Origin: Acidobacteriota bacterium
Lineage (GTDB): Bacteria > Acidobacteriota > Terriglobia > Acidiferrales > UBA7541
Assembly (NCBI GenBank): GCA_003223295.1
Contig: QHYM01000140.1
Span: 1-32,822, forward strand
DNA length: 32,822 nt
Direction: 5' to 3'
In this document: piece after piece, positions 22,024 to 26,687 of the stretch
Layout: each line of letters begins with the position of its first letter
Position numbering within the stretch: the first letter of the stretch is position 1
Notes under the pieces: model-generated
Databases searched by the model: none
Told to the model about the DNA's origin: nothing
The model's input: the letters and a program-made list of their open reading frames with translations, nothing else
Position numbers and translations under genes: made by a program

Positions 22024-22059
22024 AGGAAGCCTGCTAGCCTCGCGCCGCCAAGGCTTCCT
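22024..22059. repeat. Inverted repeat between convergent genes
   Basis: Perfect 9-base arms AGGAAGCCT (22024-22032) and AGGCTTCCT (22051-22059) enclose an 18-base loop and span the holA stop codon. No T-run follows on either strand, so it is not a classical terminator. It may still help end or stabilise transcripts between the convergent genes. Confidence 0.45.
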
Positions 22060-23089
22060 TGCCTGTCAATTCCGTCACCAGAAACTCCATCACCGTGCGG
22101 GCGTCTTCCCTGCCGCCCTTCAGGTGGTCATCGGCGCGCTGTAGCGCTCCCAATCCCGCGAGCAAACGCGGCTTTGGAATCTTTCGCGCGCTTTGCAACG
22201 CCAATTCCGCCTGCTCCGGCCGCATTCCCAGCGCTCGCGCCGCTTGCCAGCCGTTGACGACGCCTTTGACTTCGCTGGCTTCGATCAACTTGCGATACAT
22301 CCACGTAATCGCCCCCAGCATTTGTAATGGCTCTTCGCCGTCGCGCAGCAGGCGGTTCAGAAACTCCAGCGCCTTCTTCCCCTGCCGCGACGCCAGCAGA
22401 TCCGCCAGTTCCCAAACCGTGGTCGTCTTTTCTGAAACCACCAGCGCGCTGACGTCTTCCCGGCGAATCTGCTTTCTTCCCGCCGCAAACGTTGCCAGCT
22501 TGTCGATTTCCGTTTTCAGCCGCATCAAATCCGCAGCCACAAACTCCGCCAGGTCCTCGGCGGCTCCTCGTTCGAATTCGAGGCCTTGCTCTTTTGCCAT
22601 CGCACGCGCCAGCGCTACTGCTGCCGCTTGCCGTTCATTCAGGTTTTCGCCCAGCCCACACTCCACCACCAAGGCCTTCTCCGCCAGCAACTTCCCCCAT
22701 TTCATGCGCTGATCCAATTGCGAGGCTTCGATCACCAGCACGCTAAAAGGAGCCGGATCTTCCAGATATGCCGTAAGCTGGTCGACGGCTTCTTCCCGGT
22801 TTTTCTCACCGAATTTCTCAATCGCTTCGGCATCCTCGAGGAAAACCACTTGCAGGGGCGCAAGCATGGCCATGGTTTGCGCTTGTTCGATCGCCGCCTG
22901 CGTCCCTCCGCGGTCCGCCGAATATCGCGATACCGCCCATGGTCGCGCCCCTTCCGGAACGCATCTCTCGATCAAAAGTGTGCGGCACCTGTCCCGCAGA
23001 TACGGCTCTTCTCCGAGCAGCAGAATCGCCGGGATGGGTTTCCCCTTCTCCAGTCGCGACAGCAGTTCATTTGCCGAAATTCGCGCCAT
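22034..23089 (-). CDS. holA: DNA polymerase III subunit delta
   Basis: Clamp-loader subunit that opens the beta sliding clamp during replication. The 351-residue protein shows HolA layout: N-terminal AAA-like domain (about 1-140) with LLLGEEPYLRDRCRTLL and LQVVFLEDAEAIEKF, a middle helical domain, and a C-terminal collar domain (about 205-340) with VWELADLLASRQGKKALEFLNRLLRDGEEPLQMLGAITWMYRKL. HolA lacks a functional P-loop, as here. The start is ATG at 23089 with AAGG close upstream. It is the last gene of the psd-pssA-asd-like-lptE-holA run, 153 bases after lptE. The lptE-holA order is common in bacteria. Confidence 0.93.
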   Translation of the reverse strand: MARISANELLSRLEKGKPIPAILLLGEEPYLRDRCRTLLIERCVPEGARPWAVSRYSADRGGTQAAIEQAQTMAMLAPLQVVFLEDAEAIEKFGEKNREEAVDQLTAYLEDPAPFSVLVIEASQLDQRMKWGKLLAEKALVVECGLGENLNERQAAAVALARAMAKEQGLEFERGAAEDLAEFVAADLMRLKTEIDKLATFAAGRKQIRREDVSALVVSEKTTTVWELADLLASRQGKKALEFLNRLLRDGEEPLQMLGAITWMYRKLIEASEVKGVVNGWQAARALGMRPEQAELALQSARKIPKPRLLAGLGALQRADDHLKGGREDARTVMEFLVTELTGKEALAARG

Positions 23090-23242: not shown

Positions 23243-23761
23243 CTAATAGTTTTCCGTCACCGCTGCCACCAGCCGCGCCGCGAAATCCTGCGCTAGGCGC
23301 TCCAGCGCGGCGTCCTGCTCCTCGAAAAAACTTTTCACGTCCGTGGAAATCTCATACTGGTTGCGAAACAAAAAATTATCCGTGTGATAGAGAACGTTTC
23401 CGGTGTCGCGCTCCTCGAACGTGACTTCGCACTTCACCGTCACCAGCATCGTCGTGGCGCGTCCCGTGGCCGTGTCAAACAGCAGAGGAACCGCTTCTAG
23501 GCTGAGCACTTTCCCGCGCAGCACTGCATCACCATTAGACGGCTCGGACACCACGCGATACCGCGTCTTCGCCAAAAACTCATGCACGGTTGCCGCTGTC
23601 AACCGCTGCTCGATGCGATAGCTGGTGGTCTTATTCTCCAACGCCGGCACGGCAATCACACGAATGCTTTGCGGCAGTGCGTTGCTCCGCCCTGCCACGT
23701 GATAGCCGCATCCGCAGAGCAGCGCGCTCGTCGCTACCAATGCGATTCGCCAATTTCTCAC
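23243..23761 (-). CDS. lptE: LPS-assembly lipoprotein LptE
   Basis: Outer-membrane lipoprotein that plugs LptD and helps insert lipopolysaccharide, so this organism is expected to be a diderm with LPS. I chose GTG at 23761, which overlaps the TGA of the upstream gene (GTGA) with GGAG about six bases before. The 172-residue product starts with a lipoprotein signal ending L-C-G-C18 and continues GYHVAGRSNALPQSIRVIAV. The LptE core includes YRIEQRLTAATVHEFLAKTRYRVV and ISTDVKSFFEEQDAALERLAQDFA. It is translationally coupled to the Asd-like gene and precedes holA. Confidence 0.9.
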   Translation of the reverse strand: MRNWRIALVATSALLCGCGYHVAGRSNALPQSIRVIAVPALENKTTSYRIEQRLTAATVHEFLAKTRYRVVSEPSNGDAVLRGKVLSLEAVPLLFDTATGRATTMLVTVKCEVTFEERDTGNVLYHTDNFLFRNQYEISTDVKSFFEEQDAALERLAQDFAARLVAAVTENY

Positions 23762-24765
23762 GCTAGCCGCTCCGCCAATTTCACCGCATGCCAAGCCGGC
23801 AATCGAATATTATCCGCCGCTCCCCAAAACCACCACGTTCCCGGATGAGCCGGATCCGCTTTCGGTTGCGCGAGTTGAATCGCCTTCTCACCTGCCGCGC
23901 TCACGTTGTTTGGCCCCGCTTCCCCGTGCGCGGTCAGCATGAACCCCGCATCGGCGCAGGCCTTGGCCATTTTTTCGCCATCTGTACTCGGATCCAGTTC
24001 CGCGCACGCGGAAAACGTAGTCCCGTAAAAAACGGGCGCGTGGATCACTTGGAGCGAAGGCACGACCGCCGAGCTGCCCAAACATGCCCGCAACTCCGCT
24101 CGCACTCGATCTCGAACTGCGTCCAATTTGTGAGCGCTCGCTGCACCGTAATGGTCCAGCATGCTGAACGCAACCTGCGCGTGGAACACGGGCTGCCCTA
24201 AGCTTTGAAACGAAAGCAATTGGCCCGTCTGGCTTTCTAGTTCTTCGATTCCCGCACGCCCAGCCTCGGATACCGGCTGAAACCATTGGAGAGCCATTCT
24301 CTTCACGCCGCATCGAGACAGCGCCAGCGCCAAGGCCGCCGCTGCGGTCCCTGCCGCCGAAGGAATTGCGCAAGCCGTGGCGCTCGCGGGAAATTTCGAC
24401 CCTCGTAGTTCATCCAGCTTGGGGAACCAAGCCGTTGCTTCGCCTTCGCAGGCAAGCGCGCCCGAAAGGTCCACGATTTTTCCGTGCGCTTGTTTCGCCG
24501 CGCTCAGGTTGATCTTTGTAAATGCCGGCGAACCAGCGAAGAACATGAATCGCGCGTTCTCGAAGCTGCCTTCTTCCACTGGCTGAATGACGGCGGGTTC
24601 GCCGCCCGCTTCGGTTAGCGTTCCGGCGGCCCCTTCCTCATCCAGCAGCCGAAAATCCCAGCCGGCAAATTTGCTTTCTTCCAGCAACAACTTCAGCTCC
24701 GCACCGAGCAGCGAAGATGCACCCGTAATCACGATTCGGTTGGATTCCCGCTCCATGGAAGGCAT
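23758..24765 (-). CDS. Asd/USG-1-like protein, catalytically dead aspartate-semialdehyde dehydrogenase paralogue
   Basis: The 335-residue protein has the aspartate-semialdehyde dehydrogenase fold. It has an N-terminal Rossmann segment (RIVITGASSLLGAELKLLLEE), a dimerisation domain with FQPVSEAGRAGIEELESQT aligned to the AVSGAG-EL-QT block, and a C-terminus with WFWGAADNIRLPAWHAVKLAERL. The catalytic Cys motif, normally NPNCST, reads IPSAAGT, so Cys is replaced by A137. The catalytic His motif, normally FNGH, reads FYGT (T249). Both residues needed for thioester chemistry are absent, so dehydrogenase activity is not expected. It resembles USG-1-type homologues. It follows pssA by three bases and overlaps lptE, so a role with phospholipid or LPS assembly is possible but unproven. 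The true asd gene should be elsewhere in the genome. Confidence 0.85.
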   Translation of the reverse strand: MPSMERESNRIVITGASSLLGAELKLLLEESKFAGWDFRLLDEEGAAGTLTEAGGEPAVIQPVEEGSFENARFMFFAGSPAFTKINLSAAKQAHGKIVDLSGALACEGEATAWFPKLDELRGSKFPASATACAIPSAAGTAAAALALALSRCGVKRMALQWFQPVSEAGRAGIEELESQTGQLLSFQSLGQPVFHAQVAFSMLDHYGAASAHKLDAVRDRVRAELRACLGSSAVVPSLQVIHAPVFYGTTFSACAELDPSTDGEKMAKACADAGFMLTAHGEAGPNNVSAAGEKAIQLAQPKADPAHPGTWWFWGAADNIRLPAWHAVKLAERLA

Positions 24766-24768
24766 GAA

Positions 24769-25599
24769 TCACGCGGTCCGCGAAACCAGCCGGTGCCGCA
24801 GGAAGCGCACCACGTGGAGCGTAAGCCCCACCACTGCATAGGTAGAGGCCATAATCACGAGAGCGTACTCCGAGTAGCGCCAAATCACTCCCACAAGCAA
24901 ACAAAGCAAAACGATGGCAAGCGACGGCTGCTTTCGCGTCAAGGGAATGTCTTTGAAGCTGTTGTAGCGAATGGTGCTGGTCATCAAGGCCCCGAGTCCT
25001 GCCGCAAGCAAGAACCACGCAACGGACCAACGCCAATCGTGCAAGGGCTGTTTGAATCCATGAACAATTGCCGCAATCATGCCCGCCGCCGCTGGCGTTG
25101 GCATGCCTATAAAGTATTTCGAACTGCCCGGGGCCATGCCTTGCACGTTGAACCGCGCCAGTCTCCAGGCACAGCAAATCAAAAACGCCAGGCAGCAGAC
25201 CCAGCCAAACTCGTCCATCTGTTGAAATGCAACACTGCCATCCCCTGGCAAGGCACGCAGTCCCCAAGCGTATGCCAGGATCGCCGGCGCGATTCCGAAA
25301 CTCACAACGTCCGCGATCGAATCAAACTGCACGCCGAAATCGGTGTTTGCCTTCAGCAGCCGCGCCAGCCGGCCATCCAGAGAATCAAACAAGATTGCGA
25401 AGCCAATGGCCTTTGCGGCATGGTCAAAATTATCTCTTCCGCCCAACAGCGACGCCACAACCGCAAAGTAGCCGCAGAGCAAGTTAGCAACGGTGAAGAG
25501 GCTGGGGATGAGAAAGATGCCCCTGCGGCGCAATTTCTGACTGCGATAGCGCCGTTCCTCGAAAGGGATCTCGTGCTGATCTGTATCAGGCGTCGTCAC
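24769..25599 (-). CDS. pssA: CDP-diacylglycerol-serine O-phosphatidyltransferase
   Basis: Integral membrane enzyme that makes phosphatidylserine from CDP-diacylglycerol and L-serine, the substrate for Psd. I chose GTG at 25599, which overlaps the psd TGA (GTGA); the open frame runs up to 25761 but that part lies inside psd. The 276-residue product has the CDP-alcohol phosphatidyltransferase motif D-x2-DG-x2-AR-x8/9-G-x3-D-x3-D (DSLDGRLAR then GVQFDSIAD). Several transmembrane helices follow, and the start of the enzyme proper is RRGIFLIPSLFTVANLLCGYFAV. It is coupled with psd upstream and the Asd-like gene downstream. Together psd and pssA make phosphatidylethanolamine. Confidence 0.93.
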   Translation of the reverse strand: MTTPDTDQHEIPFEERRYRSQKLRRRGIFLIPSLFTVANLLCGYFAVVASLLGGRDNFDHAAKAIGFAILFDSLDGRLARLLKANTDFGVQFDSIADVVSFGIAPAILAYAWGLRALPGDGSVAFQQMDEFGWVCCLAFLICCAWRLARFNVQGMAPGSSKYFIGMPTPAAAGMIAAIVHGFKQPLHDWRWSVAWFLLAAGLGALMTSTIRYNSFKDIPLTRKQPSLAIVLLCLLVGVIWRYSEYALVIMASTYAVVGLTLHVVRFLRHRLVSRTA

Positions 25600-26288
25600 G
25601 ATCTCTTCCCTGACCCCATCAGGTGAGCTTCCGTTTCTGCAGAGCTCTTCCCGGCCGATTCCCCAGAGGCACGTTTCGCGGGCCACCACGCGATCAGGCT
25701 GGAGCCGCCCTTCACATTCTCCCCTACTTTCACCAGAATCTCCGCCCCTTTCGGCAGCCAAACATCCACACGGGAACCGAATCGCACCAGCCCAATGCGC
25801 TCTCCACGCGCCACTTGTTCACCAGCTTTCTTCCAAGAGACTACCCGCCGCGCGATGAGTCCGGCAATCTGCTTGAACACCATTTCCCCCGATTCGGTCG
25901 AAAGCGTAAACACGTTCTGCTCATTTTCGAACGAAGCCCGTTCGCGCATGGCTGCCAAGAATTTCCCCGGCCGGTAGTTCATCTTTGCAATGGTTCCGGA
26001 TGCCGGCGCGCGGTTCACATGTACGTTCCAGATTGCCAGGAAGATGCTCACGCGCTGGCCAGGACGTGCTGCGTTCTCTTCCTCGGTGACCACCACGACG
26101 CGCCCATCTGCCGGCGACACAATGGCGCCAGGCCCCGCGGGAATCACGCGATCCGGATCGCGAAAGAAAGAGAACACAAATAAGGCGAGTACCACGAACA
26201 CTGCGGCGGCGACATACCAGTGAAGGAGAATAACCGAGCCGCCCAGCACCAGCGGCGGCAACCCAAAGAAATAGCCTTCTTTGACCAT
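25596..26288 (-). CDS. psd: Phosphatidylserine decarboxylase (short, archaeal-type)
   Basis: Membrane-associated pyruvoyl enzyme converting phosphatidylserine to phosphatidylethanolamine. I chose ATG at 26288, preceded by AGAGG; an upstream TTG (26327) is weaker. The 230-residue product has two N-terminal hydrophobic segments (PPLVLGGSVILLHWYVAAAVFVVLALFVFSFF), then SPADGRVVVV and the VHVNRAPASGTI block. The self-cleavage site is the Gly-Ser in LVRFGSRVDVWLP, where Ser becomes the pyruvoyl group. The short form lacks the long N-terminal region of E. coli Psd and resembles the archaeal-type (PSD-A) group. It is followed by pssA with a 4-base overlap. Confidence 0.93.
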   Translation of the reverse strand: MVKEGYFFGLPPLVLGGSVILLHWYVAAAVFVVLALFVFSFFRDPDRVIPAGPGAIVSPADGRVVVVTEEENAARPGQRVSIFLAIWNVHVNRAPASGTIAKMNYRPGKFLAAMRERASFENEQNVFTLSTESGEMVFKQIAGLIARRVVSWKKAGEQVARGERIGLVRFGSRVDVWLPKGAEILVKVGENVKGGSSLIAWWPAKRASGESAGKSSAETEAHLMGSGKRS

Positions 26289-26351
26289 GTTCCGCCTCTT
26301 GGCTCGCGGCTTGGCCGCCGCGAGCAAGCATGGTCATTCTACGACAGTTTT

Positions 26352-26609
26352 CTATGCCGCAAAGCTGGTATTGCTTGGATCTCGCTGCTCACGCAGGATG
26401 CGCGCAGCAATCCGCTCCATCTCATCCTTGCAGTGGAGCTTCATTTTTTTCAGTTTGATTTCTTCCAGGAGGTCTTCTGCGTTGAGGTAGGGGGATTTGG
26501 AGATTCGTTGAAGTTCTAGTTCGTACTGATGGTGCTGCTCTGCCAGACGCCGATACTCAGCGTCTGTCTGGAGAAGCACGTCCCGAGGTGCCCGCTGCGC
26601 ACTAGCCAT
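26352..26609 (-). CDS. Small YdcH/DUF465-like coiled-coil protein
   Basis: An 85-residue protein with the layout of the DUF465/YdcH family, whose function is unknown. The core is YRRLAEQHHQYELELQRI, then YLNAEDLLEEIKLKKMKLHCKDEMERI, two helices joined by a short loop with the LKK-K-KL-KD pattern. The start is ATG at 26609, with AGGAGG a few bases upstream; an open frame extends further but without a site. A promoter (26660-26687) precedes it. It lies 63 bases before psd and may head the psd-pssA-asd-like-lptE-holA operon. Confidence 0.85.
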   Translation of the reverse strand: MASAQRAPRDVLLQTDAEYRRLAEQHHQYELELQRISKSPYLNAEDLLEEIKLKKMKLHCKDEMERIAARILREQRDPSNTSFAA

Positions 26610-26659
26610 GCGTTCCTCCTGACGACTTCGTGAATGGAATGGGAACACTACATGAGCGA

Positions 26660-26687
26660 ACGATACCACTTCGGTTTGCGGCGTCAA
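26660..26687 (-). promoter_or_regulatory. Sigma-70-like promoter of the DUF465-psd operon
   Basis: On the minus strand TTGACG (26687-26682) and TATCGT (26665-26660) are separated by 16 bases. Transcription would start near 26653, giving a leader of about 44 bases before the ATG at 26609. Confidence 0.5.

Follow-up and report, generated by a model that had tools for sequence, protein, structure and literature searches.

AsdL, a pssA-linked relative of aspartate-semialdehyde dehydrogenase in Acidobacteriota that is predicted to have lost its chemistry

The locus and its genes

The window, that is the whole stretch of 32,822 nucleotides analysed here, comes from an Acidobacteriota bacterium whose nearest named relatives are the 'Acidobacteria bacterium isolate gp2' MAGs, which places its genome near those of group 2 from soil. 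On its minus strand we found a gene for a protein with the fold of aspartate-semialdehyde dehydrogenase (ASD), referred to below as AsdL, placed between a gene of phospholipid synthesis and one of LPS assembly. In coding-strand order the genes of this region are:

26352..26687, minus strand: small DUF465 protein (PF04325 25.4 bits, cut-off 25)
25596..26327, minus strand: psd, phosphatidylserine decarboxylase (NF003678 233.6 bits, cut-off 225)
24769..25599, minus strand: pssA-type CDP-alcohol phosphatidyltransferase, phosphatidylserine synthase (PF01066, TIGR00473)
23758..24765, minus strand: AsdL, ASD-fold protein of 335 aa (ORF call, Pfam, alignment)
23243..23761, minus strand: lptE, LPS-assembly lipoprotein (PF04390 47.9 bits, cut-off 23)
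22034..23089, minus strand: holA, DNA polymerase III delta subunit (TIGR01128 214.9 bits, cut-off 80)

The AsdL reading frame runs from an ATG at 24765 to a TGA at 23760-23758. It coincides with the frame named in the original prediction, made from the sequence alone, to which we add the strand. That prediction had also described tight packing between pssA and lptE, and both points were confirmed. Three bases separate the pssA stop from the AsdL ATG, and the GTG start of lptE overlaps the AsdL stop as GTGA. The neighbours are indeed LptE, on the PF04390 match listed above, and PssA, which scored 73.6 bits with PF01066 (cut-off 22) and 105.5 bits with TIGR00473, slightly below the cut-off of 107, and which carries the conserved D71..D74 G75..R79..G88..D92..D96. 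For pssA we infer a GTG start at 25599 that overlaps the stop of psd; the pssA frame stays open further, to a TTG at 25761.

An ASD fold with altered catalytic positions

The original prediction held that the ASD fold is intact from end to end. Consistent with this, the window protein matched the Pfam domain Semialdhyde_dhC with 38.1 bits (cut-off 26) and Semialdhyde_dh with 24.4 bits, slightly below the cut-off of 26. Among 61 AsdL proteins, the dimerisation domain was matched by 60 and the NAD domain by 55 (E 0.001). An AlphaFold model made with four close sequences was weak (mean pLDDT 65.2, pTM 0.67); its best 32 PDB matches by Foldseek were all ASDs or ASD homologues, 2hjs ranking fourth. 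Sequence and model together indicate that both domains of the fold, NAD-binding and dimerisation, are present in AsdL. The likeness to bacterial ASD (asd_B, TIGR01296) thus lies in the same two Pfam domains at full length, and the difference in the catalytic, substrate and NADP residues, which AsdL lacks; the window protein scored 62.7 bits with the asd_B model (cut-off 324.2).

The absence of the catalytic Cys and His, on which the original prediction rested, was confirmed by alignment with seven true ASDs. The Cys motif of the window protein reads IPSAAGT with A137, and the His motif APVFYGTT with T249, at columns that hold Cys in 7/7 and His in 7/7 of the true ASDs. Three further residues were found to be lost, A105 standing at the phosphate Arg, H242 at the substrate Arg and G45 at the NADP Arg; Q163 is retained and R220 stands in for Lys. 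The functions named here are those we take these residues to have in ASD. In a larger alignment, the catalytic Cys was present in 0/98 AsdL rows (one row being gapped) and the catalytic His in 35/98, compared with 9/9 ASDs for each. The substrate-Arg (VRVP) column, Arg in 9/9 ASDs, held Q in 50, H in 17 and R in 10 of the 98 rows. The NADP Arg, also found in 9/9 ASDs, was outside the eight commonest AsdL residues at its column, and the phosphate Arg was retained in 3 of 61 AsdL. The cofactor-loop glycines were affected as well, the first being replaced in 6/61 and the middle one in 61/61. With Cys, His and the substrate, phosphate and NADP Arg residues of the window protein all gone, the reading of AsdL as a pseudo-ASD stands, and its ASD chemistry has, as judged from these alignments, almost certainly been lost.

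A sequencing or frame error was rejected as a cause, the frame being open and the altered motifs recurring in relatives, and a loss specific to the gp2 lineage was excluded by the absence of Cys from all 98 rows. Three relatives with 76-80% identity carry IPSAAG (two) or VPSAAG (one) together with FYGT (all three) and share the gene order of the window. Since these relatives keep both motifs and gene order, and dN/dS is about 0.12, the altered motifs are beyond chance. Median dN/dS, calculated from six genus-level sequences, was 0.117 for AsdL, 0.112 for pssA, 0.109 for psd, 0.114 for lptE and 0.090 for holA; the values are rough, dS being near or above 0.7 in pairs with the window and one pssA pair being saturated. 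Gene decay was excluded by this resemblance of AsdL to its neighbours, and the comparison of sequences points to strong purifying selection on AsdL.

Conservation within AsdL was compared between residue sets of our choice and 5000 random sets. The ASD catalytic positions were conserved at the random level (958/5000 random sets as high). Within the dimerisation domain, residues 175-203 and 310-330 were highly conserved (0/5000). Conservation was also above random for residues 164-176 (8/5000), strong for segment 242-249 (2/5000) and somewhat above average for the NADP-site set (129/5000). No C, H, K, R or Y exceeded 70% conservation in AsdL, and among S, T, D and E only D99, S166, E175, D318 (ASD-shared), E23 and E56 did so. 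At the sequence level, this pattern would fit a new enzyme less well than a dimer without catalysis. A new enzyme stays under consideration because of the strongly conserved block 242-249, in which 97/98 rows have F246, the remaining one being gapped, and 91/98 have H or Y at position 247. Moreover, D or E ends the second strand in 66/98 rows; in Rossmann folds, an acidic residue at this place suits NAD, not NADP.

Distribution and genomic context

At E 1e-10, AsdL was detected in 82/89 genomes of the window's family (49/50 good ones) and in 128/151 sampled genomes of its class (111/126 good ones). Across the phylum, the window protein matched 113/297 genomes (E 0.001) and an AsdL profile 159/396 (E 1e-15), some of the latter matches being true ASDs. 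In a search of plasmids for AsdL, every match was ASD or USG-like and shared less than 60% identity. The distribution established here is that within Acidobacteriota, to which a contig scan added three gp2 loci. Two trees, with 42 and 31 AsdL rows, each placed AsdL in a single clade (100/100) whose stem is long, at 0.66 or 1.16 changes per column. Members of one family or class mostly clustered, as predicted by vertical descent. The best reading of these trees is that AsdL would have originated before the sampled Acidobacteriota lineages split and have been inherited vertically since.

We examined the surroundings of 97 AsdL and five true ASDs (L076, L082, L099, L108, L133). Loci were picked from match lists to spread families, with their context unseen, and the counts are those of a non-random sample; neighbours were counted by matched segment and the label 'gp2' was counted as family f1. 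A same-strand pssA lay directly 5' of AsdL in 86/97 loci, representing 35/42 families, and in most loci a DUF465 gene lay 5' of psd-pssA-asdL. Beside the true ASDs, same-strand marker genes were seen at 0/5 loci. Conservation of the order pssA / asd-like / lptE, which the original prediction had raised, thus held for the first pair, which is widespread, but not for lptE, which lay directly 3' of AsdL in 34/97 loci from 7 families, all in the window's class. The remaining genes directly 3' were an MsbA-like ABC exporter (10 loci), yicC (3) or others, including loci with no marker (50), and an MsbA-like gene was present 3' at any distance in 22 loci from 16 families. In the 11 AsdL loci without adjacent pssA, the 5' gene was DUF465 in 10 and a glycosyltransferase in 1; directly 3' of AsdL, the same loci carried an MsbA-like gene (7), yicC (3) or none seen (1).

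Two loci (L122, L104) show a long cluster, DUF465-psd-pssA-AsdL-MsbA-like-yicC-gmk-coaBC, which is perhaps close to the ancestral order. A locus of family f10 (L153), from a genome without AsdL, carries lptE and holA 5' of DUF465-psd-pssA, and lptE-holA and psd-pssA are therefore linked beyond the window's class, in another order.

AsdL also occurs apart from these partners. Eighteen AsdL genomes have no pssA beside AsdL: 8 carry pssA elsewhere, and 10 gave no match (5 from family f50, 3 from f64 and 1 each from f91 and f14). Conversely, many genomes that lack AsdL have pssA. The LPS gene lpxC was not found in 5/5 AsdL genomes of family f43 and in one other (G572), and was found in the other 12 searched. 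AsdL as a strict partner of PssA is not supported, given the 10 genomes without a pssA match, nor is AsdL as a strict LPS protein, given the f43 genomes.

Clean losses of AsdL were seen among 17 pssA loci from genomes listed without it. Three of these loci (L147, L150, L151) read pssA-lptE-holA, and a fourth (L152) pssA-MsbA-like-yicC, with AsdL missing and the neighbours in place; the genome of L151 has a 196-bit match to the AsdL model elsewhere. The gene is therefore dispensable in some lineages. These results speak against the simple form of the envelope regulator or adaptor suggested in the original prediction, as AsdL outlasts pssA in 10 genomes and lpxC in f43, and is cleanly missing from some operons. 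In family f88 (L144, L145, L146) the slot after pssA holds a conserved membrane protein of 327 residues, for which no Pfam match was found in the one copy scanned. In family f87 the slot is occupied by a D-isomer 2-hydroxyacid dehydrogenase, identified by Pfam in L143 and L149 and by sequence likeness in L142; that an NAD-binding protein takes this place may be a coincidence.

USG-1, true Asd and the possible roles of AsdL

The nearest known kind to AsdL is USG-1, whose members are ASD look-alikes long annotated as dehydrogenases without an assigned role. This comparison, already drawn in the original prediction, is apt for the lost residues. E. coli Usg and P. aeruginosa 2hjs both have the ASD fold without Cys at the catalytic column, which holds S in the former and A in the latter, and in both the substrate Arg is changed to Gln, the Lys to Arg and the NADP Arg to Glu. 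AsdL and USG-1 have in common the Cys loss, often Gln for the substrate Arg, and F246, although the window protein has His, not the Gln of USG-1, at the substrate-Arg column. Its best PDB sequence match was 2hjs ('USG-1 protein homolog'; E 1.1e-22). It nevertheless fell below the cut-offs of both USG-type models, with 120.2 bits for PRK05671 (cut-off 284), its best NCBIfam model, and 84.4 bits for PRK08040 (cut-off 273), with which E. coli Usg scored 683.5 bits.

On a shared origin the trees gave a mixed picture. AsdL formed its separate, long-stemmed clade, and AsdL and USG as one clade received a support of 42. The AU p values of AsdL/USG groupings spanned 0.297 (one clade, two USG), 0.108 (one clade, four USG), 0.0935 and 0.0307, the last disfavouring a grouping of AsdL with enterobacterial USG alone; L163 and L164, which carry a full ASD site, were outside the USG set of the final AU tests. 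As far as these sequences go, common ancestry of AsdL and USG-1 is neither established nor firmly rejected. A study of the usg operon in Salmonella takes usg as a putative ASD (PMC6358828). The genomic context of usg differs from that of AsdL, usg lying with pdxB-truA, or after leuB-asd and before fimV. Like catalytically dead paralogues (pseudoenzymes) in general, AsdL has retained its fold and lost catalytic residues under purifying selection; its inactivity and any partners are predictions from sequence and context. To our knowledge, which includes a literature search on ASD look-alikes, a role has been proven for no pseudoenzyme of the ASD fold.

The host genome encodes true ASDs as well. 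Two of its proteins are of the asd_gamma type, at 551.1 and 552.3 bits against a cut-off of 402.9, and a third, of the asd_EA type, scored 432.5 bits against one of 301.2; the Cys motif is intact in all three. The original prediction had counted the absence of another asd gene as evidence against itself, an objection that these three genes remove. We then considered 26 AsdL genomes, chosen because asd_EA was missing in the genome or a sibling. With the asd_B model, 22 of them showed no ASD-family gene besides AsdL. For 8 of these 22 the asd_EA model was used as well; the rest were searched with TIGR01296 only, which did recover asd_EA genes in G000, G272 and G012. A canonical Asd was present in 4/26 (G022, G394, G272, G012), that of G394 being assigned by a 112-bit asd_B match similar to that of the host asd_gamma genes. 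In the 22 AsdL-only genomes dapB gave no match in 17, a weak match below cut-off in 4 and a real one in G446. This absence is only suggestive, because dapB was also unmatched in 4 of 12 genomes with canonical Asd (G060, G019, G272, G012); it was below cut-off in 3 more (G194, G022, G006) and in the host genome itself. Together with the pssA and lpxC results, the AsdL-only genomes argue against AsdL being an Asd subunit or a strict partner of PssA or LPS.

Because AsdL is kept under strong selection beside membrane-phospholipid genes despite its lost chemistry, across a large and mostly soil-dwelling group of bacteria, it probably has a second job. From its genomic context we tentatively favour, with confidence short of even, a role in tuning envelope-lipid output, exerted by a non-catalytic dimer as scaffold or sensor. 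An ancient AsdL would have lost ASD chemistry before the sampled Acidobacteriota diverged and been passed on vertically. It would work as a non-catalytic dimer through the retained fold and dimerisation domain, might use the former cofactor cleft to bind a dinucleotide or some small ligand, and would act on envelope-lipid output within an operon of lipid synthesis and lipid export. It would not be an obligate partner of PssA or LPS, since it outlives both in some lineages, and its position near pssA may mirror an old super-operon rather than function. It is doubtful that AsdL is, more specifically, the first non-catalytic ASD-fold regulator, a ligand- or dinucleotide-sensing dimer coupling phosphatidylethanolamine synthesis to lipid export by LptE or an MsbA-like exporter throughout Acidobacteriota.

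A new enzyme is an unlikely but serious alternative to the scaffold or sensor. In this case AsdL would have retained its binding cleft for a different chemistry, of an oxidoreductase or of another kind, in which newly conserved residues such as F246, H/Y247, Q197 and S166/E167 take part. The near-constancy of F246 and H/Y247, the place of segment 242-249 among the best conserved, the somewhat elevated NADP-site set and the acidic second-strand end, which we take to be of NAD type, all agree with such a change, but the lack of any Cys, His, Lys, Arg or Tyr at 70% and the replaced cofactor-loop glycines do not. We consider it slightly less probable that AsdL is a passenger of its operon with a job unrelated to lipids, for example as a metabolic sensor, its place deriving from an old growth super-operon DUF465-psd-pssA-AsdL-msbA-yicC-gmk-coaBC. 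The 3' genes do vary (lptE-holA, msbA-yicC-gmk-coaBC, others), and AsdL is present without pssA or without lpxC. Against this, the 5' pssA link holds across the families given above and, where it is broken, a lipid-exporter-like gene stands directly 3' in 7/11 loci.

Two readings would keep AsdL within aspartate-semialdehyde metabolism. A regulatory pseudo-subunit of true Asd might be expected from the shared fold with its dimerisation domain and from the three true Asds of the host; it becomes very improbable given that these Asds belong to other subfamilies (asd_gamma, asd_EA) and that 22/26 AsdL genomes showed no other ASD-family gene, 17 of them also without a dapB match. That AsdL produces aspartate semialdehyde after all, through a different mechanism, is hardly credible, with Cys, substrate Arg and NADP Arg gone and most AsdL-only lineages also without a dapB match, although one draft genome speaks for it. 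This genome, G446 (99% complete; L201, L191), has a dapE-dapB-dapA operon and AsdL, and showed no other Asd by two models; the absence may reflect an assembly gap or a novel Asd type.

AsdL represents a second, phylum-wide clade that has undergone USG-1-like losses, is strongly selected and keeps a stable position by phospholipid synthesis, a setting in which the function of ASD look-alikes becomes a concretely testable question. Annotations of pssA-linked genes in Acidobacteriota as 'aspartate-semialdehyde dehydrogenase' are probably wrong, and some genomes of the phylum seem asd-positive yet show no ASD able to do the reaction.

In the host genome, the three true asd genes lie on contigs C115, C466 (L002, L003) and C164 (L004). 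One or more of them could be foreign, the estimated contamination of the draft being 4.49%. The two asd_gamma copies resemble each other and sit on contigs with lengths near 15 and 16 kb. An aspartokinase-like ORF adjoins each of the three genes.
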